Part shown: piece after piece, positions 5,470 through 26,613 of the stretch
Position numbering within the stretch: position 1 is the first letter of the stretch
How the letters are laid out: every line of letters begins with the position of its first letter
Source: an uncultured Alphaproteobacteria bacterium
GTDB lineage: Bacteria > Pseudomonadota > Alphaproteobacteria > SP197
Direction: 5' to 3'
DNA length: 64,000 bases
Assembly (NCBI GenBank): GCA_943787175.1
Contig: CALSLK010000006.1
Location: 372,001-436,000, forward strand
Notes under the pieces: generated by a model
Seen by the model: only the letters and a program-made list of their open reading frames with translations
What the model was told of the DNA's origin: nothing
Database searches by the model: none
Translations under genes and position numbers: made by a program

Positions 5470-6009
5470 TTATTCAGGCAACAGGCTTTGCGGTGCGTTG
5501 TCTCTGACAAGGGATCCCGTGCAGGTCCAGGGTGCGTCATCGGGAAGGCCTGAAACCTCCATGGCGATTTCGATGACCGAGCCATCGGGCAGGTTGCGCC
5601 AGGACCAGGTGGTGGTGCCCGGGCACGGCTCGCTCAAACAGGCCAGGGTATCGGTATCCACGCCATGCGCGGGGCCGTGGCGTGCCGTCACCTCGGCAAC
5701 CAGGGCAGGGCAGGATGCCTGATGACCGTTCCGGGCGGCCATGTCGATGCGGTAGAGGCCGTCGCGTCCGATCAGAAAGAAAACATCAAATAGCCCGTCG
5801 CCCACCGAATCTTCCATGGCAAGCACCGCACCTGCTGCATTCTGCACCGGGCCCGCAATCTCGGTCGCAGGGACCAGACGGGATGCGGAGTAGGTCACGG
5901 TCATGACCTCAGCCATCGTCATGCCCCATGTGGTGTTCTCCCACTCGGCTCTGGCCGCGTCGGCGATCATGAGCAGAAATGGAAGAAGCAGGCAGAAGGT
6001 CTGACGCAT
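5470..6009 (-). CDS. Secreted hypothetical protein
   Basis: 179 residues with a clear signal peptide (MRQTFCLLLPFLLMIADAARA, predicted cleavage after ARA). The mature part has four cysteines (SCPAL, LACLSEPC, WTCTG) that could form disulfides in the periplasm. No family was recognised; the segment WENTTWGMTMAEVM loosely resembles secreted domains that begin with a W-G-M pattern. It lies between purH and rho on the same strand with its own roughly 100-base gaps, so it is probably transcribed separately. Confidence 0.6.
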   Translation of the reverse strand: MRQTFCLLLPFLLMIADAARAEWENTTWGMTMAEVMTVTYSASRLVPATEIAGPVQNAAGAVLAMEDSVGDGLFDVFFLIGRDGLYRIDMAARNGHQASCPALVAEVTARHGPAHGVDTDTLACLSEPCPGTTTWSWRNLPDGSVIEIAMEVSGLPDDAPWTCTGSLVRDNAPQSLLPE

Positions 6010-7646: not shown

Positions 7647-8075
7647 CTACTTGCCGGCAACCAGTGCCGGATCGTTTTTCAGGATGCACCACAGACCCAC
7701 CGCAGCGGGCCATGCGGCCCACAGACCCCAGGGCACGAACAGGGTCAGCGTGCCAGTCAGGCTGGCAGGTGAGAAACTTACATCGTTACCGGCGATATCA
7801 CCGATCAGGTGCACGAACACCACCATGGCAAGCGCCAACACCAGGGCGACCAGGAACGACGCGGCCAGGAATGCGCGCAACATGGAAAGCCCGCTTTTGT
7901 CTATAAACGCCAGGCCCAGCTTCAGCGTGAAGATGGCACCGATGAACGGCAGCAGAAGCGGGAAGGCAAACATCAGGGACTGGATCGAATAGGGCCAGAC
8001 CATCATGTAGGCGATGAGCGAGAAGAGGCCACCCAGCATGACAGCCTTGGACCAGAGTTGCGGTGTCGTTTTCAT
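7647..8075 (-). CDS. Small membrane protein of unknown function
   Basis: 142 residues dominated by four hydrophobic segments (about residues 10-30, 32-52, 66-90 and 108-128), so an inner-membrane protein with both ends probably on one side. No catalytic motif was seen and no family was recognised. Its ATG overlaps the stop codon of hemJ (ATGA), which places it as the last gene of the hemE-hemH-hemJ operon and suggests translational coupling. Confidence 0.65.
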   Translation of the reverse strand: MKTTPQLWSKAVMLGGLFSLIAYMMVWPYSIQSLMFAFPLLLPFIGAIFTLKLGLAFIDKSGLSMLRAFLAASFLVALVLALAMVVFVHLIGDIAGNDVSFSPASLTGTLTLFVPWGLWAAWPAAVGLWCILKNDPALVAGK

Positions 8076-8526: not shown

Positions 8527-9558
8527 TCAGGCCTCCATGCAGGGGCATTTGCCCCAGTCGGCAGGACATAGACGCCGGCCGGAATCAGGGCCCAGTTCAG
8601 GGGCATCAGGTGCCAGCGTGGTGCGAACGATCTGGGCCAACCCGTCGATGAAGGCTGCTTCGACCCCCAGTGCCGGGACCCGGATATAGGGCTGGCAGTT
8701 GTTCTCGTGGGCCATCTCGGCATATTCGATATCGAGTTCGACCAGGGTTTCGGAATGCTCCGAAACGAAAGCAATCGGCACCACAACAGCACCCTTGCCA
8801 TCGCCACCAGCACGTTTGATTTCGTCATCGGTCGAAGGCCCGATCCAGGTCAGGGGGCCAACGCGGGACTGGTAGCAGACCTGCCAATCGAGATCGGGTT
8901 TTGCCAGTCGCGCAACCACGGCCGCCGCGGTCTGTTCGATCTGCCACTGATAGGGATCGCCCGCCTTGACGATTTTTTCGGGCAGGCCATGGGCTGAAAA
9001 CAACACGCGCACCGGCTGGTCACCGGCATGCTCAAGGGCACGTTCCAGCAGGGCGGCATGGGCCGTGATCAGACCGTCATGCATGGGGTAACAGCACACG
9101 GCTTTGGTCGGCGCCTTGATCCCTGCCTTTGCCGCAGCGCGGTGCCAGGCTTTCAGGGATGACCCCGTCGTGGTGGTTGAGAACTGCGGATAAAGCGGCA
9201 GCAGGACAACCCGGTCAGGCCCGAATGCAGCAACCTCGCGGGCCGCCTCGTCTGCCATGGGATGCCAGTAGCGCATGGCGATGAAGACCTTTGTTGCTTC
9301 ACCGCCCAGAGCTGTTTCAAGTCCGGCTGCCTGGGCTCGGGTCTCCTCGAGCAACGGAGATTTTCCGCCGATCAGTGCATAGATCTTCCGCGCTTCCTTC
9401 TGGCGTTTGTTGGAAATATAGGAAGCCAGCATCGGGCGCAGAGGCCAGGGCAGACCGATGATGGCTGGATCGTTGAAGAGGTTGCCCAGAAACGGCTGAA
9501 TGGCATCGGGCGAATCGGGGCCACCCAGATTGAACAGCACCACCGCCGTGCGGGTCAC
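8527..9558 (-). CDS. hemH: Ferrochelatase
   Basis: 343 residues, full length for the family. It begins with TAVVLFNLGGPDSPDAIQPFL, and carries the active-site stretch VLFSAHGLPEKIVKAGDPY with the catalytic histidine and the later SRVGPLTWIGPSTDDEI segment. It inserts Fe2+ into protoporphyrin IX, the last step of haem b synthesis. The start is a GTG overlapping the hemE stop as GTGA, and hemJ follows at once, so three late haem-pathway steps are translationally coupled. Confidence 0.95.
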   Translation of the reverse strand: MTRTAVVLFNLGGPDSPDAIQPFLGNLFNDPAIIGLPWPLRPMLASYISNKRQKEARKIYALIGGKSPLLEETRAQAAGLETALGGEATKVFIAMRYWHPMADEAAREVAAFGPDRVVLLPLYPQFSTTTTGSSLKAWHRAAAKAGIKAPTKAVCCYPMHDGLITAHAALLERALEHAGDQPVRVLFSAHGLPEKIVKAGDPYQWQIEQTAAAVVARLAKPDLDWQVCYQSRVGPLTWIGPSTDDEIKRAGGDGKGAVVVPIAFVSEHSETLVELDIEYAEMAHENNCQPYIRVPALGVEAAFIDGLAQIVRTTLAPDAPELGPDSGRRLCPADWGKCPCMEA

Positions 9559-10625
9559 GATGCGTTCCCGCGCTGATGGCTCCGCACTGTGGCGACCAGA
9601 TCAGCCACATGCTCGGGCGGTGTTTTCTTGATCACACCATGCCCCAGATTGAAGACATGGGGGCCGCCAGCCATGGCGTCTAGAATCGCACGGGCGCCTG
9701 CACGCATGGCCTCACCGCCGGCCAACAGCAGCTGGGGATCAAGATTGCCCTGAACCGGGCCGCCGCGCTGCAACCCGGCCATGGTCGAGTGGGATATACC
9801 CTGATCGATCTGGAGAACGTCAATGCCAGTTTCGTCGCGATAATTTGCATAGCGGTCTGCAGCGCCACGGGGGAAACCGATGAAAGGAATGCCCGGGCGG
9901 GCGGCATGAACCTCGGCCACGATCGCGCGCGCAGGGCCAATGGACCAGCGGTCGAAGGAAGAACCGTCCAGCAGACCGGCCCAACTGTCGAAAAGCTGCA
10001 CGGCCTGGGCGCCTGCATCGATCTCGCCGATTAGCAGGGAAGCAACAGCGCGTGAAAGAACCTCGAGCAAGCGGTCGAGCAGATCAGGATCCTGCTGCAT
10101 CAGTTCACGGGTCCGGGGAAAGTCTCCACCACCGCGACCGTCGATCATGTAGGCAGCAAGCGTGAAGGGCGCGCCGGCGAATCCGATCAGCGCGATTTCG
10201 GGATCAAGCTCGGCACGCACCCTGGCGAGCGTTTCCATCAACGGCTGGTTGCCTGGAACAACACACTCAGGGTCGAGTTTTCTGACATCGCTCAGTCCCT
10301 CGAGTGGATCAAGGATCGGTCCTTCGCCTTCTGCAAAACGTAGGTTGCGGCCCATGGCATCTGGTATGATCAGGATGTCGGAAAACACGATGGCAGCATC
10401 GATTGCAAAACGCCGGATTGGCTGCAGCGTGATCTCGGTCGCGATCTCGGGGTTGCCGCAACAGGCCATGAAGTCACCGGCTTCCTGTCGCAGGGCACGG
10501 TATTCCGGCAGGTACCGTCCGGCCTGGCGCATCAGCCAGATCGGTACGGGGTCCATGCGTTGACCGCCCAAAGCCTTGATCAGGCGTGGGGTCACGGGGG
10601 TTGGAAGGGGCGATGGAGTGTTCAC
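9555..10625 (-). CDS. hemE: Uroporphyrinogen III decarboxylase
   Basis: The family signatures WLMRQAGRYLPEYRALR near the N-terminus and GFAGAPFTLAAYMIDG in the middle are intact, together with FIGFPRGA and HVFNLGHGVIK. It decarboxylates the four acetate chains of uroporphyrinogen III to give coproporphyrinogen III. No ATG lies near the start of homology. I chose the GTG at 10625 (356 residues, near the usual 345-355); a GTG at 10595 or the more distant GTG at 10703 are alternatives. The gene forms the left border of the candidate replication origin. Confidence 0.93.
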   Translation of the reverse strand: MNTPSPLPTPVTPRLIKALGGQRMDPVPIWLMRQAGRYLPEYRALRQEAGDFMACCGNPEIATEITLQPIRRFAIDAAIVFSDILIIPDAMGRNLRFAEGEGPILDPLEGLSDVRKLDPECVVPGNQPLMETLARVRAELDPEIALIGFAGAPFTLAAYMIDGRGGGDFPRTRELMQQDPDLLDRLLEVLSRAVASLLIGEIDAGAQAVQLFDSWAGLLDGSSFDRWSIGPARAIVAEVHAARPGIPFIGFPRGAADRYANYRDETGIDVLQIDQGISHSTMAGLQRGGPVQGNLDPQLLLAGGEAMRAGARAILDAMAGGPHVFNLGHGVIKKTPPEHVADLVATVRSHQRGNAS

Positions 10626-11016
10626 GAAGCGGGGACTTACACCCTTCCCCTCTTCAATAAAAGAAGGTCTAAAAGGTTGTTGTAGTAGTGGGTCCCTGTC
10701 CACGGCTTGGATGGCTGTTTGTCAGCCCAGTCACAGACAGGGTTGTGGGCCCTGAGGAAAGCAGTGACATGGTGATGTGCGGGAATCAGGGACAACAGGG
10801 ATTCTCCGCCGAGTCGCCTTGTGGGAAATCTTGTGGATCGCTTGCTAAAGACATCACCCGATTCATGTCGGTTGGTGCTCCATCCACAGGGCGCGTTTGC
10901 CGATCGTCCCCATGGGGACAAAGACTGGCTGGAATCTGGATGGTGTGGATGGGGCTTGCGCGCCTGTGCAATACCAGCGACTTATCCCCGATGATCTCCA
11001 TTGCGCCCACAAGCCC
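10626..11016. other. oriC: Candidate chromosomal replication origin (oriC)
   Basis: A 390-base non-coding stretch between hemE (leftward) and the DUF299 gene (rightward), the same setting as oriC of Caulobacter. It holds three TGTGGAT heptamers (DnaA-box core): TGTGGATCG at 10832, the inverted CCATCCACA at 10880-10888 and TGTGGATGG at 10944. TTATCCCCG at 10982 and TGTGGGAAA at 10820 are weaker 7-of-9 boxes. An AT-richer tract lies at 10650-10685 beside hemE and could unwind. Five GANTC sites (CcrM targets) fall between 10783 and 10936. Flanking genes diverge away on both sides. No single box is a perfect 9-mer. Confidence 0.75.
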
Positions 11017-11835
11017 GTGACCAACTTTCATTTCCATCTGGTTTCCGATGCAACCGGTGAGACCATTCTTTCTGTCGCGCATGCTGCCGTGGCGCAGTTC
11101 GAGGATGTCGAGGCGGTGGAGCATGTCTGGGCCCTTGTACGCTCGACGCGCCAAATGGATCGCGTGCTTGCAGCCATCGAGGCCAATCCCGGTGTTGTGA
11201 TCTATACGATGGTCGATCCGGCCAGGCGTGATCAGCTTACCCTGGGCTGCCAGAAACTGGGTGTGCCCTGTGTTCCCGTGCTTGATCCCGTGTTGGGTGT
11301 GCTCTCGACCTATCTGGGCCAGCCGGTCAAAGGCCTGCCAGGGGAACAGCACACGCTCGATGCCGATTACTTTGCCCGGGTCGATGCCATCCAGTTTGTC
11401 CTGCGCCACGATGACGGCCAGTCGCCTTATGATCTTGATGAAGCCAACGTCATCGTTGTCGGCGTATCGCGCACGTCCAAGACCCCGACCTGTTTCTATC
11501 TTGCCAACCGTGGCCTCAAAGCAGCCAACGTACCGATCGTGCCCAGCGTGCCCGTGCCCGATGAGTTGCTTGCCGCCAAACGCCCGTTGATCGTTGCCCT
11601 GATCCAGAGTGCGGACCGGCTGGTCCAGGTACGCAAGAACCGCATGACCATGTTGAAGCAGGAGGGCGAGAGCGATTATGTCGAACCCGCCGCGGTGCGC
11701 CGTGAGCTGGCCTATGCCCGCAAGCTCTATGAAGAGAACGACTGGCCCGTGATCGATGTGACGCGCCGCTCCATCGAGGAAACCGCAGCGGCCATCCTGC
11801 AGCTCTATCAGGAACGCTTCGGAGCGTTGCCTTGA
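11017..11835 (+). CDS. ppsR: DUF299 bifunctional kinase-pyrophosphorylase (PEP synthase / PPDK regulator)
   Basis: 272 residues from GTG 11017, matching the family length and the usual TNFHFHLVSDATGETI opening. The P-loop-like motif appears as VVGVSRTSKTPTCFYLANRG near residue 150. The family phosphorylates and dephosphorylates a threonine of phosphoenolpyruvate synthase or pyruvate phosphate dikinase using ADP and phosphate. The ORF track starts at 10897, which would run through the candidate origin, and the extra residues have no family character. Its stop overlaps the maf start. Gene symbol is by family only. Confidence 0.88.
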   Translation: MTNFHFHLVSDATGETILSVAHAAVAQFEDVEAVEHVWALVRSTRQMDRVLAAIEANPGVVIYTMVDPARRDQLTLGCQKLGVPCVPVLDPVLGVLSTYLGQPVKGLPGEQHTLDADYFARVDAIQFVLRHDDGQSPYDLDEANVIVVGVSRTSKTPTCFYLANRGLKAANVPIVPSVPVPDELLAAKRPLIVALIQSADRLVQVRKNRMTMLKQEGESDYVEPAAVRRELAYARKLYEENDWPVIDVTRRSIEETAAAILQLYQERFGALP

Positions 11836-12442
11836 TGTCTGCTGATCCAACCCCTCTCATTCTGGCTTCGGCCAGCGCGGGCCGCCGGACCATGCTGGAA
11901 AACGCCGGCGTGGTGTTTGATGTCGAAGCAGCCAGCATCGACGAAGATGCCGTGAAGCAGTCCCTGGGTGCAGAAGGTGCCAGCGTGGAACAGGCTGCCG
12001 AGACCCTTGCCGAACTCAAGGCACGACGCATCAGCGCACGCCATCCGGGCGTTCTGGTGCTGGGTTCCGATTCGATGCTTGAATGCCAGGGACGCTGGTT
12101 CGACAAGGCCGAATCGGTGGAGGAGGCACGCGAACACCTCCAGGCCATGCGCGGAACCAAACACCGGCTGGTAACGTCGGCCGTTCTGGTGCGCGACGAG
12201 GGGCGGATCTGGCATCACACTGCGGTCGCCGAAATGACCATGCGCAATTTCTCGGATGCCTGGCTCGATAGCTATCTCCAGGATGTGGGCGAGCGTGCCT
12301 GCGCCAGCGTGGGATGTTATCAGGTCGAAGGACGCGGCCTGCAGCTCTTTGCCGGATCGACGGCGACTTCTTTGCCATTGTCGGCCTGCCTATGGTTCAG
12401 GTGCTCGACCAGTTGCGAACCCAGGGAGTGCTGGCGACATGA
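11835..12442 (+). CDS. maf: Maf-family nucleotide pyrophosphatase, frameshifted near the 3' end
   Basis: The start LILASASAGRRTMLENAGV is the Maf signature, and LVLGSDSMLECQGRWFDKA plus SVGCYQVEGRGLQLFA follow. These enzymes hydrolyse non-canonical nucleoside triphosphates in the cytoplasm. After GLQLFA the expected ending (RIDGDFFAIVGLPMVQVLDQL) is found in the next frame, so one base is missing near 12352. Read through, the protein ends at a TGA that overlaps the aroE start as ATGA. The open frame in the track runs on to 12545 only because of this shift. Confidence 0.88.
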
Positions 12443-13278
12443 TCCATTCAGGAAAAACGATGCTGGCCGGTGTCATGGGCTGGCCGGTTGCCCATTCCCG
12501 TTCGCCGCGCCTGCATGGCTTCTGGCTCGAATCCTATCGCATTGATGGTGCCTATGTGCCGCTTGCCGTGCCGCCTGAAGGCTTTGAGCGCGCCTTGCGG
12601 GCGCTGCCTGAACTGGGGTTCCGTGGCGCCAATGTCACCCTGCCGCACAAGGAAGCCGCCCTGGCACTGGCCGATGAGGCCGACGACATCGCCCGGCGTA
12701 TCGGGGCAGCCAACACCGTGATCGTGCGTGATGATGGCAGTCTTTCTGTCACCAACACCGATGCCTTCGGCTTTACGGAAAACCTGGAGCAGCGCGCCCC
12801 GGACTGGCCGTCAGGCCGTGCTGCCGTCCTGCTGGGTGCAGGTGGTGCCAGCCGCGCGGTGATCGTCGCCTTGCTGGAAGCAGGCGTGCCTGCCATCCGT
12901 CTGGCCAACCGCACCGCCGAACGTGCGCAGGCGCTGGCTGACGAATTTGGTCCTGCCGTCGAGCCCGTCGCCTGGGACGAACGCAGTCAGGCACTCGACG
13001 GTGCCGGCCTGCTGATCAACAGCACGCAGCTTGGCATGACCGGCCAGCCCGCTCTGGAGATCGCGCTTGATCCCCTGGCCGATGACGCCGTGGTTTACGA
13101 CCTCGTCTATGCCCCGCTGGAAACCGATCTTCTGGCAGATGCAGGACGCCGTCACCTGCGCACCGTCGATGGCCTGGGCATGCTGCTCCACCAGGCCCGC
13201 CCGGGTTTTGCCGCCTGGTATGGCCGCGAGCCCGAGGTCAACGGCGCGCTCTACGCCTACGTCGCCGAAGACCTCTAA
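12439..13278 (+). CDS. aroE: Shikimate dehydrogenase
   Basis: 279 residues from ATG 12439. The substrate domain opens with GVMGWPVAHSRSPRLHGFW, contains the catalytic lysine motif FRGANVTLPHKEAAL and the NTD motif SVTNTDAFGFTENL. The NADP-binding domain has AVLLGAGGASRAV and LANRTAERAQAL. It reduces 3-dehydroshikimate to shikimate in aromatic amino-acid synthesis. The start overlaps the true end of maf, giving a coupled ppsR-maf-aroE run on the right arm of the origin. It ends convergent with the serine hydrolase, overlapping by four bases. Confidence 0.95.
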   Translation: MIHSGKTMLAGVMGWPVAHSRSPRLHGFWLESYRIDGAYVPLAVPPEGFERALRALPELGFRGANVTLPHKEAALALADEADDIARRIGAANTVIVRDDGSLSVTNTDAFGFTENLEQRAPDWPSGRAAVLLGAGGASRAVIVALLEAGVPAIRLANRTAERAQALADEFGPAVEPVAWDERSQALDGAGLLINSTQLGMTGQPALEIALDPLADDAVVYDLVYAPLETDLLADAGRRHLRTVDGLGMLLHQARPGFAAWYGREPEVNGALYAYVAEDL

Positions 13279-20294: not shown

Positions 20295-20682
20295 GCGATC
20301 CTGCACCTTATTATGAGCGCCACGTCTTCTGCTGTACGAACGAACGGGCCGAAGGCCATCCACGCGGCTGCTGCAAGGCGCGTAATGCCGAGGCGCTGCG
20401 CAATCATCTGAAAGCCCGGACCAAGGAACTGGGCATCCCGGGTGCGCATCAATGCTGCGGGGTGTCTGGATCGCTGCGAACTGGGCCCGACCATGGTGAT
20501 CTACCCTGAAGGCGTCTGGTATCGGTACGAGAACGAAGCAGGACCTGGAAGAGATCCTGCGGGTCCACATTGCCGGGAATGGCCGGGTTGAACGCCTGAT
20601 GCTCAACCCGAAGACGGCCCCAATTGACCATGACGCCGACTCTGCGGGGCCGGTGTTTCACGTGAAACACATGCTGTTATGA
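20291..20682 (+). CDS. (2Fe-2S) ferredoxin-domain protein, with two frameshifts
   Basis: It opens with [30 protein letters not shown], then AHQCCG. After a shift near 20445 it continues in another frame as [25 protein letters not shown]. After a second shift near 20538 it continues as [24 protein letters not shown]. The four cysteine groups match the thioredoxin-like 2Fe-2S ferredoxin family. The restored frame runs through the first parS site (encoding FHVKH) and its stop overlaps the mnmE ATG. The consistent family match across all three pieces argues for sequence errors over decay. Confidence 0.78.
20653..20670. promoter_or_regulatory. parS: parS centromere site 1
   Basis: Perfect 18-base palindrome GTGTTTCACGTGAAACAC, containing the standard parS 16-mer bound by ParB. 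It lies inside the last codons of the ferredoxin-like gene, a few bases before mnmE and about 5 kb from parB. Confidence 0.93.
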
Positions 20683-21990
20683 CCATCTTTGCTCTCTCTT
20701 CCGCGCCGGGCCGTGCCGCCCTGGCGGTCATCCGTGTTTCCGGGCCAGCCGCCGGGTCTGCCGTGCGTGCGCTGACTGGAAGGGACGTCCCGAAACCACG
20801 CGACCGCTGCCCTGCGCCGGCTGGTGGAGCCCGAAAGTGGCGAGCCTGATCGACGAGGCCCTGATCCTGTGGTTCCGGGGCCCCGCCAGCGAAACCGGCG
20901 AGGATATGGCGGAGTTTCAGGTGCATGGCGGTCGTGCCGTGGTCCAGGGGGTCCTTGAGGCGCTTTCGCGTCTGCCGGGTCTTCGGCCTGCTGAACCTGG
21001 CGAATTCACGCGCCGTGCGCGTGCTCAACGGCAAGCTCGACCTCACGGCTGCCGAAGCCGTTGCTGATCTGGTTGAGGCCGATACCCGTCGCCAGCGCGA
21101 TCAGGCACTGGCCCAGATGCAGGGCGCTCTGGCGCAGGCCTATGATGGCTGGCGCGATCGCCTGGTTGCCCTGATGGCGCGACTCGAAGCCGTCATCGAC
21201 TTTTCCGATGAAGAACTCCCCGATGATGTGACCCTGGGCTTGCTGGATGCGGTGGGTGATCTGGGAAATGAAATCTCTTCCTACCTAGACGATGACCGGC
21301 GTGGAGAACGCCTGCGCGAAGGTTTGCAGATTGTGATCCTGGGCGCGCCGAATGTGGGGAAATCGAGCCTGCTCAACCGTCTGGCCCGCCGGGAGGCTGC
21401 GATTGTTTCGGACGAGGCCGGAACGACCCGTGATGTTGTCGAAGTCACGCTGGATCTTGCCGGGTTCGCTGTGACGCTGGCCGATACCGCGGGGCTGCGG
21501 GCTGATGCGGGCGCGGTGGAACGCGAAGGTATGCGCCGGGCGCTTGATCGCGCGGACAGGGCCGACCTGAAACTGGTGCTGGCCGATGCCTCGCGTTGGG
21601 ATGAGACCTGGGCCGCGGTGGAGCATCAGGTTGATGACAAGCACCATCGTTGTCGCCAACAAGTCCGACCTGGGACATGTTTCACGTGAAACACCTGCCT
21701 TGCCCGTCTCCTGCAGCACAGGCGAAGGCCTGGACGAACTCATTGGCGATGTGGCGCGTCGGATCGAGGAAGCCTGGGGCGGAGAGTCCCCGGGGCCCAC
21801 GCGGGAGAGACACCGTGCCGGTCTTGAACAGGCCGCTGCGGCACTTGAGCGCGCCCGGCTGGGGCAGGAGTCGGCCCTGATCGCCGAGGATCTGCGTCTG
21901 GCTGCGACGGCACTGGGCCGAATCACAGGCCGGGTAGATGTCGAAGACCTGCTGGACGTGATCTTCTCGGAATTCTGCATCGGCAAGTAG
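20679..21990 (+). CDS. mnmE: tRNA uridine-5-carboxymethylaminomethyl modification GTPase MnmE, with about four frameshifts
   Basis: Pieces in successive frames give the whole protein: [25 protein letters not shown], then [29 protein letters not shown], then [20 protein letters not shown]. These are followed by the G domain with [30 protein letters not shown] and ANKSDL, and finally the C-terminal [11 protein letters not shown] with the invariant CxGK. Frame changes fall near 20801, 20845, 21018 and 21637. With MnmG it modifies the wobble uridine of several tRNAs. All active motifs are intact, so indel errors are likely. parS site 2 lies inside the gene. Confidence 0.9.
21678..21693. promoter_or_regulatory. 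parS: parS centromere site 2
   Basis: Perfect 16-base palindrome TGTTTCACGTGAAACA within the mnmE coding region just after the NKSDL motif, where it encodes HVSRETP. Confidence 0.93.
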
Positions 21991-22200
21991 AACGGCGTGT
22001 TTCACGTGAAACACCCTGGCGCGTCGGGAATCCCCTTGCTATCGCCGTAGTTCCGGGCTTTGTTCCCGGCACACGAACAATCCCCGGTCTGGACCCCCTG
22101 TGTTGGGGTGCATGGGGTTGTCTTCGTTCTTTTTCAGAACACCTCCCATCCTGCCAACCCGCGCTGGACCTTGAACTGCTGCATGCCTACATTCCGCGCC
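21991..22200. other. mnmE-mnmG intergenic gap with two hairpins
   Basis: About 210 bases with no credible gene. Besides parS site 3 it holds a stem CCGGG...CCCGG at 22053-22069 and a stem ACCCC...GGGGT at 22093-22109. Neither is followed by a clear T-run, so I do not call them terminators. Confidence 0.45.
21997..22014. promoter_or_regulatory. parS: parS centromere site 3
   Basis: Perfect 18-base palindrome GTGTTTCACGTGAAACAC in the intergenic gap, seven bases after the mnmE stop codon. It is the only one of the four sites that is not inside a coding frame. Confidence 0.94.
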
Positions 22201-24065
22201 ATGAATTCGAGACAAGACCTTTGATGTGATTGTCGTTGGCGGTGGCCATGCCGGTACCGAGGCCGCCGCTGCGGCTGCGCGCTGTGGTGCCCTGACCTGT
22301 CTTGTCACCCACAAGGCCGCGACCATTGGTGCGATGTCGTGCAATCCGGCCATCGGTGGGCTGGGCAAGGGTCATCTGGTGCGTGAAATCGACGCTCTGG
22401 ACGGCTCTGATGGCGCGCGCGATTGATCGCTCAGGCATCCAGTTCCGTATGCTCAACGCCAGCAAGGGCCCGGCCGTACGAGGCCCGCGAGCCCAGGCCG
22501 ACCGGGTGCTTTACGCCGACGCCATTCAGACGCTGCTGTCCGAACAGGACGGTCTGACGATCCTGGAAGGGGAGGCCGATGATGTCGTTCTTGACGATTC
22601 CGGCACGATTGCAGGCCTTGGACTGACCGATGGCCGCCAGCTCAAATGCCGCTCTGTGGTGGTCACGACCGGCACCTTCCTGCGCGGCATGGTGCATCTG
22701 GGTGAGGAAACCTGGGCGGCAGGGCGCATCGGCGATGCCCCTGCGGTTGGGCTTGCGCTCACACTGGAGCGGTTGGGCTTTGCCCTTGGACGTCTGAAGA
22801 CCGGAACACCGCCACGGCTGGATGGTCGTACCATCAATTGGGATGCCTGCAAGGTTCAGCCTGGCGATGATCCGCCGGTGCCGTTCTCGTGGCTGACAGA
22901 CTCCATCACGGTGCGGCAGGTTCCCTGTTACATTACGCATACCAGTGAGGTGACCCACGCCATCATCCGTGCGAACCTTGATCGTGCACCGATCTATTCG
23001 GGCCAGATCGACGGCACGGGACCGCGCTATTGTCCTTCGATCGAGGACAAGGTCGTGCGTTTTGCCGAAAAACCCGGCCATCAGATCTTTCTCGAGCCCG
23101 AAGGCCTGACCACCGACACGGTCTATCCCAACGGTATCTCGACCTCGCTGCCGCGCGATGTTCAGGACGCGATGGTTGCGACCATCCCGGGTCTTGAGAA
23201 CGCCGTGATCGAGCAGCACGGCTATGCCATCGAATACGACTTTGTCGATCCGCGCGAACTCCATCACACACTGGAAACCCGCAGAATCCCTGGCCTTTAT
23301 CTCGCAGGCCAGATCAACGGCACAACGGGTTACGAGGAGGCGGGCGGCCAGGGCCTGGTCGCGGGCATCAATGCTGCCCGGCGTGCCAGCGGCGGTGAGG
23401 CCGTCACCTTTGATCGTGCGGAAGCCTATCTTGGCGTGATGATCGATGATCTCGTGACGCGCGGCACTGCTGAGCCGTACCGCATGTTTACCAGCCGTGC
23501 CGAATACCGCCTGATGCTGCGGGCCGACAATGCTGATCTGCGGCTGACGTCCAAAGGAATCGCAATTGGCTGTGTGGGTGCCGATCGTCAGGTTGCTTTC
23601 TCACAGCGCAAGGAAGCTGTTGAATCGGCCTTGGCTGCTGCCTCTGGCCTCACGGTGACGCCTGACGAAGCCTGTGCCGTGGGTATGTCGGTGAACCGCG
23701 ATGGCCGCCGCCGCAGCCTGATTGATCTCTTTGCCTATCCCGATGCCACGCCTGAGCGTCTGGTTTCCCTGTGGCCCCAGATTGCGGGCTGGCCCGGCCA
23801 TGCGCTTGAACAGGTCGAGATTGCTGGGCGTTATGCCGGTTATGTCCATCGCATGGAGGCTGATATCGCCACCTTGCGCCGGGATGAGGCCCTGCGTCTT
23901 CCGGGGGATCTGGACTTTGCCGTCATCGGTGGCCTGTCGACCGAAATGCGCGAGAAACTGGCGCTAGCCAGGCCCGAAACCCTGGGCCAGGCGGCGCGAA
24001 TACCCGGTGTTACACCTGCTGCCCTGCAAGCACTGATGGCCCATGTACGGCGAAAGGCGGCCTGA
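22201..24065 (+). CDS. mnmG: tRNA uridine-5-carboxymethylaminomethyl modification enzyme MnmG (GidA), with two frameshifts
   Basis: FAD-binding start [23 protein letters not shown], then [23 protein letters not shown]. After a one-base shift near 22405 it continues as [29 protein letters not shown]. The long second frame continues to [23 protein letters not shown], the [20 protein letters not shown] motif and the helical C-terminus. The best start is ATG 22201, which needs one further indel near 22213 to join FDVIVV; the in-frame GTG at 22226 would clip the first strand. It works with MnmE. Confidence 0.93.
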
Positions 24066-24069
24066 TGTT

Positions 24070-24180
24070 TTTGTTGTTCCCTCAGTCGCCGGGTGCTCAC
24101 GCTGTTCGCTTGGCTTTCGCGCCGCTCGGCGCGCCGACGCAGTCGCGTCGGGCCAGCCATCCGCAAAAGTTGCGGATCGC
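24070..24180 (+). repeat. Dispersed structured intergenic repeat, copy B
   Basis: The gap between mnmG and rsmG carries the second copy of the element at 1.7-1.85 kb, in opposite orientation. Identical blocks are 24075-24096 (TGTTCCCTCAGTCGCCGGGTGC) and 24107-24123 (CGCTTGGCTTTCGCGCC), here 10 bases apart versus 34 in copy A. Hairpins follow at 24134-24151 (CCGACGC-AGTC-GCGTCGG) and 24161-24175 (CCGCAA-AAG-TTGCGG). Stem sequences differ from copy A while pairing is kept. Confidence 0.7.
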
Positions 24181-24219
24181 TGCCTTCAGAATTTCATCGG
24201 CTGTGCTGGAAGCCTTGGT

Positions 24220-24855
24220 ATGAGTGATGCAGCAACGCTTCTGACCGCTGAGACGGCTTGTGAGCGGCTTGGTGTTTCACGTGAAACACGCGAGAAGCTG
24301 GAAGCCTATGTTGCCATTCTTCTGGAATGGCAGGGTCGCATGAACCTGATCGGACCCGGCACGATCGATGATATCTGGAACCGGCACATCGTCGATTGCG
24401 CCCAACTGGCCCGTCTGGTTCCGCCGGGGTGCAAACGTCTGGTCGATCTGGGCAGTGGTGCGGGGCTTCCAGGCCTCATCTTTGCCATTTTGGGGGTGCA
24501 GGGCGTCGAGCTGGTCGAGAGCGATCAGAAGAAAGCGGCCTTCCTGCATGCCGCTGCCGGCGCCGCTGGTGTCAAACCTCTGATTCACACCTGCCGGGTC
24601 GAAGCGATGCCCCATGAGCCGGCTGATGTTGTGACCGCCAGGGCGGTTGCGCCGCTGGAGCGGCTCGTCCCGATGGTCATACCATTCATGACCGAAGGAA
24701 GCGTCGCGATTCTGCCCAAGGGCAGTTCAGTTGATCATGAGTTGAAAGCCGTAGCGCGTCACTGGCACCTGTGGTACAGTCGTCACACAAGTATGACAGA
24801 CCCTCGCGGCTGTCTCCTCGTGATCGATAGGTTGTACCATGACCCACGCCTCTGA
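24220..24855 (+). CDS. rsmG: 16S rRNA (guanine527-N7)-methyltransferase RsmG (GidB)
   Basis: 211 residues from ATG 24220. The SAM-binding motif LVDLGSGAGLPGLIFAI follows the family-typical NLIGPGTIDDIWNRHIVDCAQLARLVP, and TARAVAPLERLVPMV is the later conserved block. It methylates G527 of 16S rRNA. The ORF-track start at 24043 lies in mnmG and the repeat element. parS site 4 is inside the gene near codon 18, encoding GVSRETR. The end overlaps the likely parA start by 17 bases. Confidence 0.93.
   Translation: MSDAATLLTAETACERLGVSRETREKLEAYVAILLEWQGRMNLIGPGTIDDIWNRHIVDCAQLARLVPPGCKRLVDLGSGAGLPGLIFAILGVQGVELVESDQKKAAFLHAAAGAAGVKPLIHTCRVEAMPHEPADVVTARAVAPLERLVPMVIPFMTEGSVAILPKGSSVDHELKAVARHWHLWYSRHTSMTDPRGCLLVIDRLYHDPRL
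24272..24289. promoter_or_regulatory. parS: parS centromere site 4
   Basis: Perfect 18-base palindrome GTGTTTCACGTGAAACAC inside the 5' part of rsmG, about 550 bases upstream of parA. Confidence 0.94.
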
Positions 24856-25714
24856 CCCCACATATACCAACGTCTTGTGTGATACAGATCGTCTGACACA
24901 AGAGCTTGGGTATGACAAATCTCAGAAAATCATTGCCGTCGCCAATCAGAAGGGTGGTGTTGGTAAGACAACGACGACCATCAATCTGGCGACGGCGCTT
25001 GCAGCCGTCGGTCGGAAAGTCCTGATCGTTGACAGCGATTCCCAGGGCAATGCCAGTACCGGACTTGGTATTGCACCGTCAGACAGGCGTCAGACAACCT
25101 ATGATCTGCTGACCAGCGGCGCTTCGGCCGTGGTGCCGATGCCAACCTCCATTCCGGGTCTCTCCATCATCCCCGCCACGATCGATCTGTCAGGTGCCGA
25201 GATCGAACTGGTCGATGTTGCAGAGCGTCACGCCCTACTCAAGACCGCGCTGCGCGAACTGGCCGGTGATTACGATCTCGTGCTGATCGATTGTCCGCCC
25301 GCACTGGGCCTGTTGACGCTCAATGCCCTGGTCGCGGCAGATGAGGTGCTTGTGCCTCTGCAGTGCGAATTCTTTGCGCTCGAGGGGCTTTCACTGTTGC
25401 TCAACACGGTCGAGCGGGTTTGCCAGACCTACAATCCCGGGCTTTCGGTCTCGGGCATTGTTCTGACCATGTACGACAAGCGGAACCGGCTGTCGCGCGA
25501 AGTGGTCGATGATGTGCGTCGGGTCATGGGCGACAAGGTCTATCAGACCGTGATCCCGCGTAATGTCCGCGTCTCGGAGGCACCATCATACGGTAAGCCT
25601 GTGATGTTACACGCTTTTCACAGCGCTGGCGCACAAGCCTATGTCCATCTGGCCGGTGAAATGCTGCGTCGTGAAGCCGCGCAGCGCAACGTCCTGCAGG
25701 GAGCGGCCCGATGA
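24839..25714 (+). CDS. parA: Chromosome partitioning ATPase ParA
   Basis: 291 residues. The deviant Walker A KGGVGKTTTTINLATALA, the Walker A' VDSDSQGNASTGLG and the Walker B LVLIDCPPALGLLTLNAL are intact. It binds nucleoid DNA as an ATP dimer and moves the ParB-parS complexes. About 30 extra residues precede the core (THASDPTYTNVLCDTDRL), so a later start is possible. The 3' end overlaps parB as ATGA. Confidence 0.96.
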   Translation: MTHASDPTYTNVLCDTDRLTQELGYDKSQKIIAVANQKGGVGKTTTTINLATALAAVGRKVLIVDSDSQGNASTGLGIAPSDRRQTTYDLLTSGASAVVPMPTSIPGLSIIPATIDLSGAEIELVDVAERHALLKTALRELAGDYDLVLIDCPPALGLLTLNALVAADEVLVPLQCEFFALEGLSLLLNTVERVCQTYNPGLSVSGIVLTMYDKRNRLSREVVDDVRRVMGDKVYQTVIPRNVRVSEAPSYGKPVMLHAFHSAGAQAYVHLAGEMLRREAAQRNVLQGAAR

Positions 25715-26613
25715 GCGAACCCAGAGGTCTTGGCCGTGGTCTTTCCGCCCTGATGGGCGAACCAGCCCCTACGGCAAGCGCACCAACTGCCGAATCGGGT
25801 GAAGGGCTGCGCAAGATTGCCATCGGCAACCTGCGCCCGGGCAAGTATCAGCCGCGCACGCACTTCAACGAAGAAGAGCTCGAAAGCCTGTCCCAGTCGC
25901 TGCAGCACAGCGGCATGATGCAGCCCATCGTCGTGCGGCCGCACAAAAGCGAAGACGGCGTCTTTGAGATTGTCGCTGGCGAGCGCCGCTGGCGTGCGGC
26001 CCAGAAGGCACGCATGCATGATGTGCCCGTCATTGTCCGTGATCTCACGGATCGCGAAGTGCTCGAGCTGGGCCTGATCGAGAATCTGCAACGCGAAGAT
26101 CTGGGGCCCCTGGAAGAAGCGGCTGGCTTTGAGCGCCTTGCTTCGGAATTCCAGCTCAACCAGCGCCAGATCGGTGTCGTTGTCGGCAAGAGTCGCTCCT
26201 ACATCGCCAACATGGTGCGTCTGCTGCAGCTTCCACCGGCCTTGCGCACCATGCTCGACACAGGCGCACTGACCGCCGGTCATGGCCGTGCGCTTCTGAT
26301 GGCGGAAAATTCAGAAGCGCTTGCCAAGCGTGTTGTGCGCGACGGTCTTTCGGTGCGGGAAACCGAAGCGCTTGTTCAGGACGGAAACACCAGCACCTCC
26401 GGCAAGAAGACCCGTCGGAAAACCAGTGAACCGATCAGCGCCGATCTGCGTGATCTGCAGAACCGGCTCGGGGAACAAACCGGTCTGAAGGTTGAAATTC
26501 GATCACAGGGCGAGGCGGGTCAGCTGGTTTTGAATTACGCCAGTCTCGAACAGCTCGACGACATGATCGCACGCCTGGAATCACCGCCCCGGCCACGGCT
26601 CGTTCAAAGCTGA
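25711..26613 (+). CDS. parB: Chromosome partitioning protein ParB
   Basis: 300 residues. The N-terminal MSEPRGLGRGLSALMGE motif is the ParA-contacting stretch. The CTP-binding ParB/Srx domain shows YQPRTHFNEEELESLSQS and the IVAGERRWRAAQKA (GERRxRA) box, and the HTH segment follows at NQRQIGVVVGKSRSYIANMVRLLQLP. The C-terminal dimer region ends in LDDMIARLESPPRPRLVQS. It loads on the four parS sites upstream. Confidence 0.97.
   Translation: MSEPRGLGRGLSALMGEPAPTASAPTAESGEGLRKIAIGNLRPGKYQPRTHFNEEELESLSQSLQHSGMMQPIVVRPHKSEDGVFEIVAGERRWRAAQKARMHDVPVIVRDLTDREVLELGLIENLQREDLGPLEEAAGFERLASEFQLNQRQIGVVVGKSRSYIANMVRLLQLPPALRTMLDTGALTAGHGRALLMAENSEALAKRVVRDGLSVRETEALVQDGNTSTSGKKTRRKTSEPISADLRDLQNRLGEQTGLKVEIRSQGEAGQLVLNYASLEQLDDMIARLESPPRPRLVQS

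Follow-up and report, generated by a model that had tools for sequence, protein, structure and literature searches.

The hemE-DUF299 intergenic gap as the probable Cori-type replication origin of an uncultured alphaproteobacterium

The window analysed here is a 64-kb stretch (C6:372001-436000) of contig C6 (474 kb), which belongs to a draft assembly of 3.89 Mb in 38 contigs (91.8% complete). It contains a 391-bp intergenic gap between two divergently transcribed genes that both start with GTG: hemE at 10625 on the minus strand and the DUF299 gene at 11017 on the plus strand (Table 1; coordinates without a contig prefix are those of the window). The gap size and the divergent neighbours described in an earlier note on this DNA were borne out, the two flanks being identified by Pfam as URO-D and Kinase-PPPase. 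The same divergent hemE-DUF299 gap, 348-429 bp in length, is present in each of the 15 family members (G000, this genome, among them) in which both genes could be placed. An AT-richer tract adjoining hemE is present where it had been claimed, with 30-40% GC compared with 56% for the whole gap; GC content is lowest (30-37%) in the 30-bp windows starting at 10646-10656. Elsewhere in the window, open frames near rho at 5470-6009 (179 amino acids) and 7647-8075 (142 amino acids) gave no Pfam match. The maf (11832-12545) and mnmE (20925-21689) frames appear truncated or frameshifted relative to the Pfam models, suggesting assembly indel errors.

Table 1. Features at and around the hemE-DUF299 gap (window coordinates).
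Feature	Position	Strand	Evidence and remarks
hemE (uroporphyrinogen decarboxylase)	9555..10625	-	Pfam PF01208 URO-D, 2.4e-105; left boundary gene
Probable oriC (hemE-DUF299 intergenic gap)	10626..11016		Highest-ranking DnaA-box cluster of C6; switch in T/A skew 2.7 kb off; conserved blocks
AT-rich tract, candidate DNA unwinding element	10636..10685		30-40% GC in 30-bp windows; predicted function
TTGTTGTAGTAGTGGGTCC, candidate DnaA-trios (TAGTAG, 3'-GATGAT-5') plus spacer	10677..10695	+	BUS consensus comparison; predicted function
Two weak tandem box-like motifs, TGTCCACGG and TTGGATGG	10697..10714	+	Sequence and alignment; adjoin candidate trios; weakest part of the anatomy
DnaA box 1	10832..10840	+	CGATCCACA on reverse strand; some relatives have TGATCCACA G-box or TCATCCACA
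DnaA box 2	10880..10888	-	CCATCCACA; conserved in part as TCCACA
Palindrome TCCCCATGGGGA	10907..10918		Two inverted W-box hexamers (TCCCCA)
Weak DnaA box overlapping palindrome	10913..10921	+	TTGTCCCCA on reverse strand
DnaA box 3	10944..10952	+	CCATCCACA on reverse strand; exact core; retained only in this genome (G000) and G004
Conserved block GGGCTTGCG	10952..10960		Family consensus ggacTTGcg
DnaA box 4	10982..10990	-	TTATCCCCG; TTATCCACC or TTATCCCCA in relatives; within conserved block 10974-10990
DUF299/COG1806 Kinase-PPPase gene	11017..11835	+	Pfam PF03618, 3.7e-89; right boundary gene
parS, four exact copies of TGTTTCACGTGAAACA	20654..24288		Starts 20654, 21678, 21998 and 24273; only exact sites in genome
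parA	24839-25714	+	Pfam; downstream of mnmE-mnmG-rsmG
parB	25711-26613	+	TIGR00180, 1.1e-52; one ParB gene in genome, beside parA

Three exact TGTGGAT cores in mixed orientation lie in the gap, at 10832 (+), 10882 (-) and 10944 (+), and the remainder of the 64-kb window has just five others. The corresponding 9-mers (CGATCCACA, CCATCCACA and CCATCCACA) each differ from TTATCCACA at two positions. Together with two weaker boxes at 10913 (TTGTCCCCA) and 10982 (TTATCCCCG) they make up the set of DnaA-like sites proposed earlier, all of which were found again. A perfect or one-mismatch TTATCCACA box was not found in the gap. ATCCACA occurs 349 times in the 3.89 Mb of the genome, that is, about 0.035 times per 391 bp, and the Poisson estimate for three cores in one such gap is ~7e-6, with ~0.07 such windows expected genome-wide. 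A box was allowed up to two mismatches to TTATCCACA, TCC.C being fixed; boxes were counted in 391-bp windows, and the ranking was completed for contig C6. The gap ranks first in this contig by both box definitions (5 versus at most 3, and 3 versus at most 1). A clearly better DnaA-box cluster at another locus, which the earlier note had named as the finding that would speak against an origin here, does not exist in C6, where the other 391-bp windows contain no more than three boxes. Perfect TTATNCACA boxes were dropped as an origin marker; there are 13 of them genome-wide, all singletons, and none in the gap. One solitary perfect TTATCCACA box is found at C6:370778, 1.2 kb to the left of the window and 12 kb from the gap.

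The palindrome TCCCCATGGGGA, which the first reading of the sequence had missed, is built from two copies of the Caulobacter W-box consensus TCCCCA (PMC4285127). Extended by the following C (TCCCCATGGGGAC) it has a single site in this genome, located in the gap, and a single site placed in the gap by its coordinates in six relatives (G002, G004, G009, G010, G013 and G014). It occurs once and outside the gap in G008, whose gap carries a variant, and in G001, G003 and G007; no exact copy was found in G005, G011 and G012. Conserved blocks were determined in an alignment of ten family members (the G001/G003/G007 clade was omitted as more divergent, and G011 and G013 were not aligned). From left to right these blocks are GTAGTAGTGGGTCC (10682-10695), CCGAGTCGC (10809-10817), CTTGTGGATC (10830-10839), CGTCCCCATGGGGACAA (10905-10921), GGGCTTGCG (10952-10960) and CCAGCGACTTATCCCCG (10974-10990). 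The best-conserved elements are the box at 10832, the palindrome, the TTATCCMC box at 10982 and the GTAGTG block, and not the three TGTGGAT cores, of which only the one at 10832 is conserved family-wide. This box falls in the block at 10830-10839, and its TGTGG is retained in 13 of 13 aligned family members. The G001/G003/G007 clade is without the TTATCC block and has the palindrome sequence at other genomic places but not in the gap.

The parS sites and the mnmEG-rsmG-parAB genes are found 9.6-15.6 kb to the right of the gap, the nearest parS at 9.6 kb, in agreement with the placement of parS and parAB within about 15 kb in the earlier note; no exact parS was found elsewhere in the genome. 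In Caulobacter, parS lies no more than 8 kb from Cori, and a survey placed 92% of parS sites in the 15% of the chromosome nearest the origin (PMC4468827).

Strand composition was analysed through the excess of T over A at the fourfold-degenerate sites of predicted genes, after centring and with the sign set by gene strand; this gene-corrected skew was used because gene-strand effects can mask a weak replication skew. The data comprised contig C6, sampled stretches of G008 and the first 400 of 905 kb of G002:C16. In C6, the T/A skew is -0.096 before and +0.080 after a switch at C6:380092, which lies 2.7 kb from the gap; none of 500 block permutations gave an equally strong switch, this being one of six tests (two measures in three data sets). 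For two gene sets, 91-94% of bootstrap draws placed the change point no more than 15 kb from the gap; for two stricter sets, 45-60% did so. A GC-skew minimum had been predicted at the gap. The raw minimum of C6 lies at 377282, 5.5 kb away, but the signal is too weak to locate an origin, and plain GC skew did not locate one in G002 or G008. The first 400 kb of G002:C16 contain no GC-skew minimum at the gap, and the best-fitting origin in G008, at 660 kb, is poorly determined, the profile being almost flat. With the gene correction, the G/C measure gave no information in C6, G002 or G008, and the change points of the latter two lie away from the gap. The T/A change point was at 100 kb in G002, compared with 170 kb expected, and about 0.7 Mb from the gap in G008, where a switch set at the gap still beats permutations. 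The weaker picture in the congeners may be due to rearrangements after they diverged.

The position of the terminus was addressed in the near-closed congener G008, the window's own genome being fragmented. A site CGCATAATATATATTATGGAAA, dif-like as judged by the XerCD consensus, is located at G008:C1:1879575, where cumulative GC skew is maximal. The chromosome of G008 measures 3,415,685 bp, and the two arms between this site and the hemE-DUF299 gap (at ~129.8 kb) are 1,666 and 1,750 kb long (48.8% and 51.2%). Dif-like sites were seen in four genomes (G008:C1:1879575, G000:C32:35235, G002:C6:73924 and G005:C5:47718), with the arms CGCATAA/TTATGGAAA and with CGTATAA in G000 and G005.

The strand switch, the proximity of parABS, the near-antipodal dif-like site in the congener and the family-conserved blocks support the earlier proposal of a replication origin, and we conclude that the main chromosome very probably (probability about 0.93) starts its replication in this gap, as a DnaA-dependent origin of the hemE-COG1806 (Caulobacter Cori) type. 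We consider it highly improbable that the gap does no more than provide divergent promoters to hemE and DUF299, with DnaA-like sites that are regulatory or due to chance and an origin elsewhere. The two genes diverge, so transcription must start nearby, DnaA is able to regulate transcription in Caulobacter (PMC4468827), and the boxes of the gap match the E. coli consensus weakly; a promoter region alone is opposed, however, by a box cluster that is first in the contig, a strand switch at this place, a parS site within 10 kb and conserved blocks that match DnaA-type motifs. A simple scan also gave no sigma-70-like promoter, an argument of little weight. Slimmer still are the chances of an origin near but outside the gap, for instance at the perfect box 12 kb to its left or between the gap and parS. 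Such a location would profit from a skew change point that is resolved to several kb at best and has a wide bootstrap tail, but that perfect box is solitary, no other cluster in C6 exceeds three weak boxes, and the family-conserved DnaA-type blocks sit in the hemE-DUF299 gap itself. The dnaA gene (C6:161732-163026, outside the window) reads as four pieces separated by three frame changes; since it is full-length in 13 of 13 relatives checked, assembly indels are the likeliest cause. A DnaA-independent origin, to which these frameshifts might point, was rejected on the grounds of the intact dnaA of the relatives and of other local genes that also look frameshifted.

For an origin in the gap, we infer DnaA binding, the melting site and the order of assembly from the arrangement of the motifs. 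DnaA would nucleate on the moderate boxes at 10832, 10880, 10944 and 10982, then spread across weak W-box-like sites such as TCCCCATGGGGA, and finally reach the hemE side, where it would engage the TAGTAG trio tract adjoining the weak tandem boxes. The AT-rich tract at ~10636-10685 would then melt and forks would depart bidirectionally, with parABS to the right predicted to segregate the sister origins. In the bacterial BUS, a DnaA box is joined by a spacer to DnaA-trios that lie ~10-13 bp from the box (PMC8287927). The AT tract, TAGTAG (10683-10688, in a segment whose bases 10682-10695 form a family-conserved block) and the neighbouring box-like motifs follow the BUS order, whereas clear trios number just one or two, the spacer before the weak boxes beginning at 10697 is ~8 bp long, and the tandem boxes are poor. 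Melting is placed beside hemE because the AT tract, TAGTAG, the short spacer and the weak tandem motifs match the BUS layout, and a BUS-style start of melting there is put forward only as a suggestion, given the poor boxes and a spacer that falls short of the usual 10-13 bp.

In the literature, Cori-type origins are described by hemE/COG1806 flanks together with DnaA, CtrA and IHF sites (PMC1914354). The flanks, a DnaA-site cluster above background and an AT-rich tract were all found here, and CtrA and IHF sites were not: the gap contains no CtrA site TTAA-N7-TTAA (zero TTAA, one loose TTWW match) and no match to the IHF consensus, which is loose, so that a diverged site could escape. The gap resembles Caulobacter crescentus Cori in its flanking genes, its AT-rich tract, the parS sites nearby and DnaA sites that are not perfect boxes but moderate ones resembling G-boxes and weak ones resembling W-boxes. 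It differs from Cori by the missing CtrA and IHF motifs and by W-box hexamers that form a tight palindrome. With predicted origins of the Rickettsia/Wolbachia type (PMC1914354) it shares the hemE boundary, DnaA sites and a comparable length, but most of those have CtrA and IHF consensus sites, and in Wolbachia the other boundary gene differs. CtrA sites are described as not seen in other origins and as variable among intracellular alphaproteobacteria, some origins having different numbers of them or none (PMC1914354, PMC4468827). They are treated here as a variable feature of Cori that does not define the wider hemE-COG1806 type, and because of this absence and variability in other alphaproteobacterial origins the gap is classed by its Cori position and not as a CtrA-controlled oriC.

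Five GANTC sites lie in the gap (10783-10936), where the rate in the window predicts about one, and 3-7 are present in the gaps of the ten aligned main-clade members; judged from the sequence, this excess would fit CcrM-type methylation. It is conceivable, if rather doubtful, that the origin of this family operates without CtrA and IHF control, with DnaA loaded symmetrically at the head-to-head W-boxes of TCCCCATGGGGA, an origin-specific palindrome, and the extra GANTC sites serving methylation timing.

The origin is ordinary in kind, its gene position is already known from Caulobacter, and the general picture of bacterial origins is unchanged. What the analysis adds is an origin with good support, together with a set of conserved motifs, in an alphaproteobacterial family beyond the model species. 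As a sequence tag, the palindrome confined to the origin offers an inexpensive way to locate oriC in this family's draft genomes, and it is a specific candidate site for DnaA.
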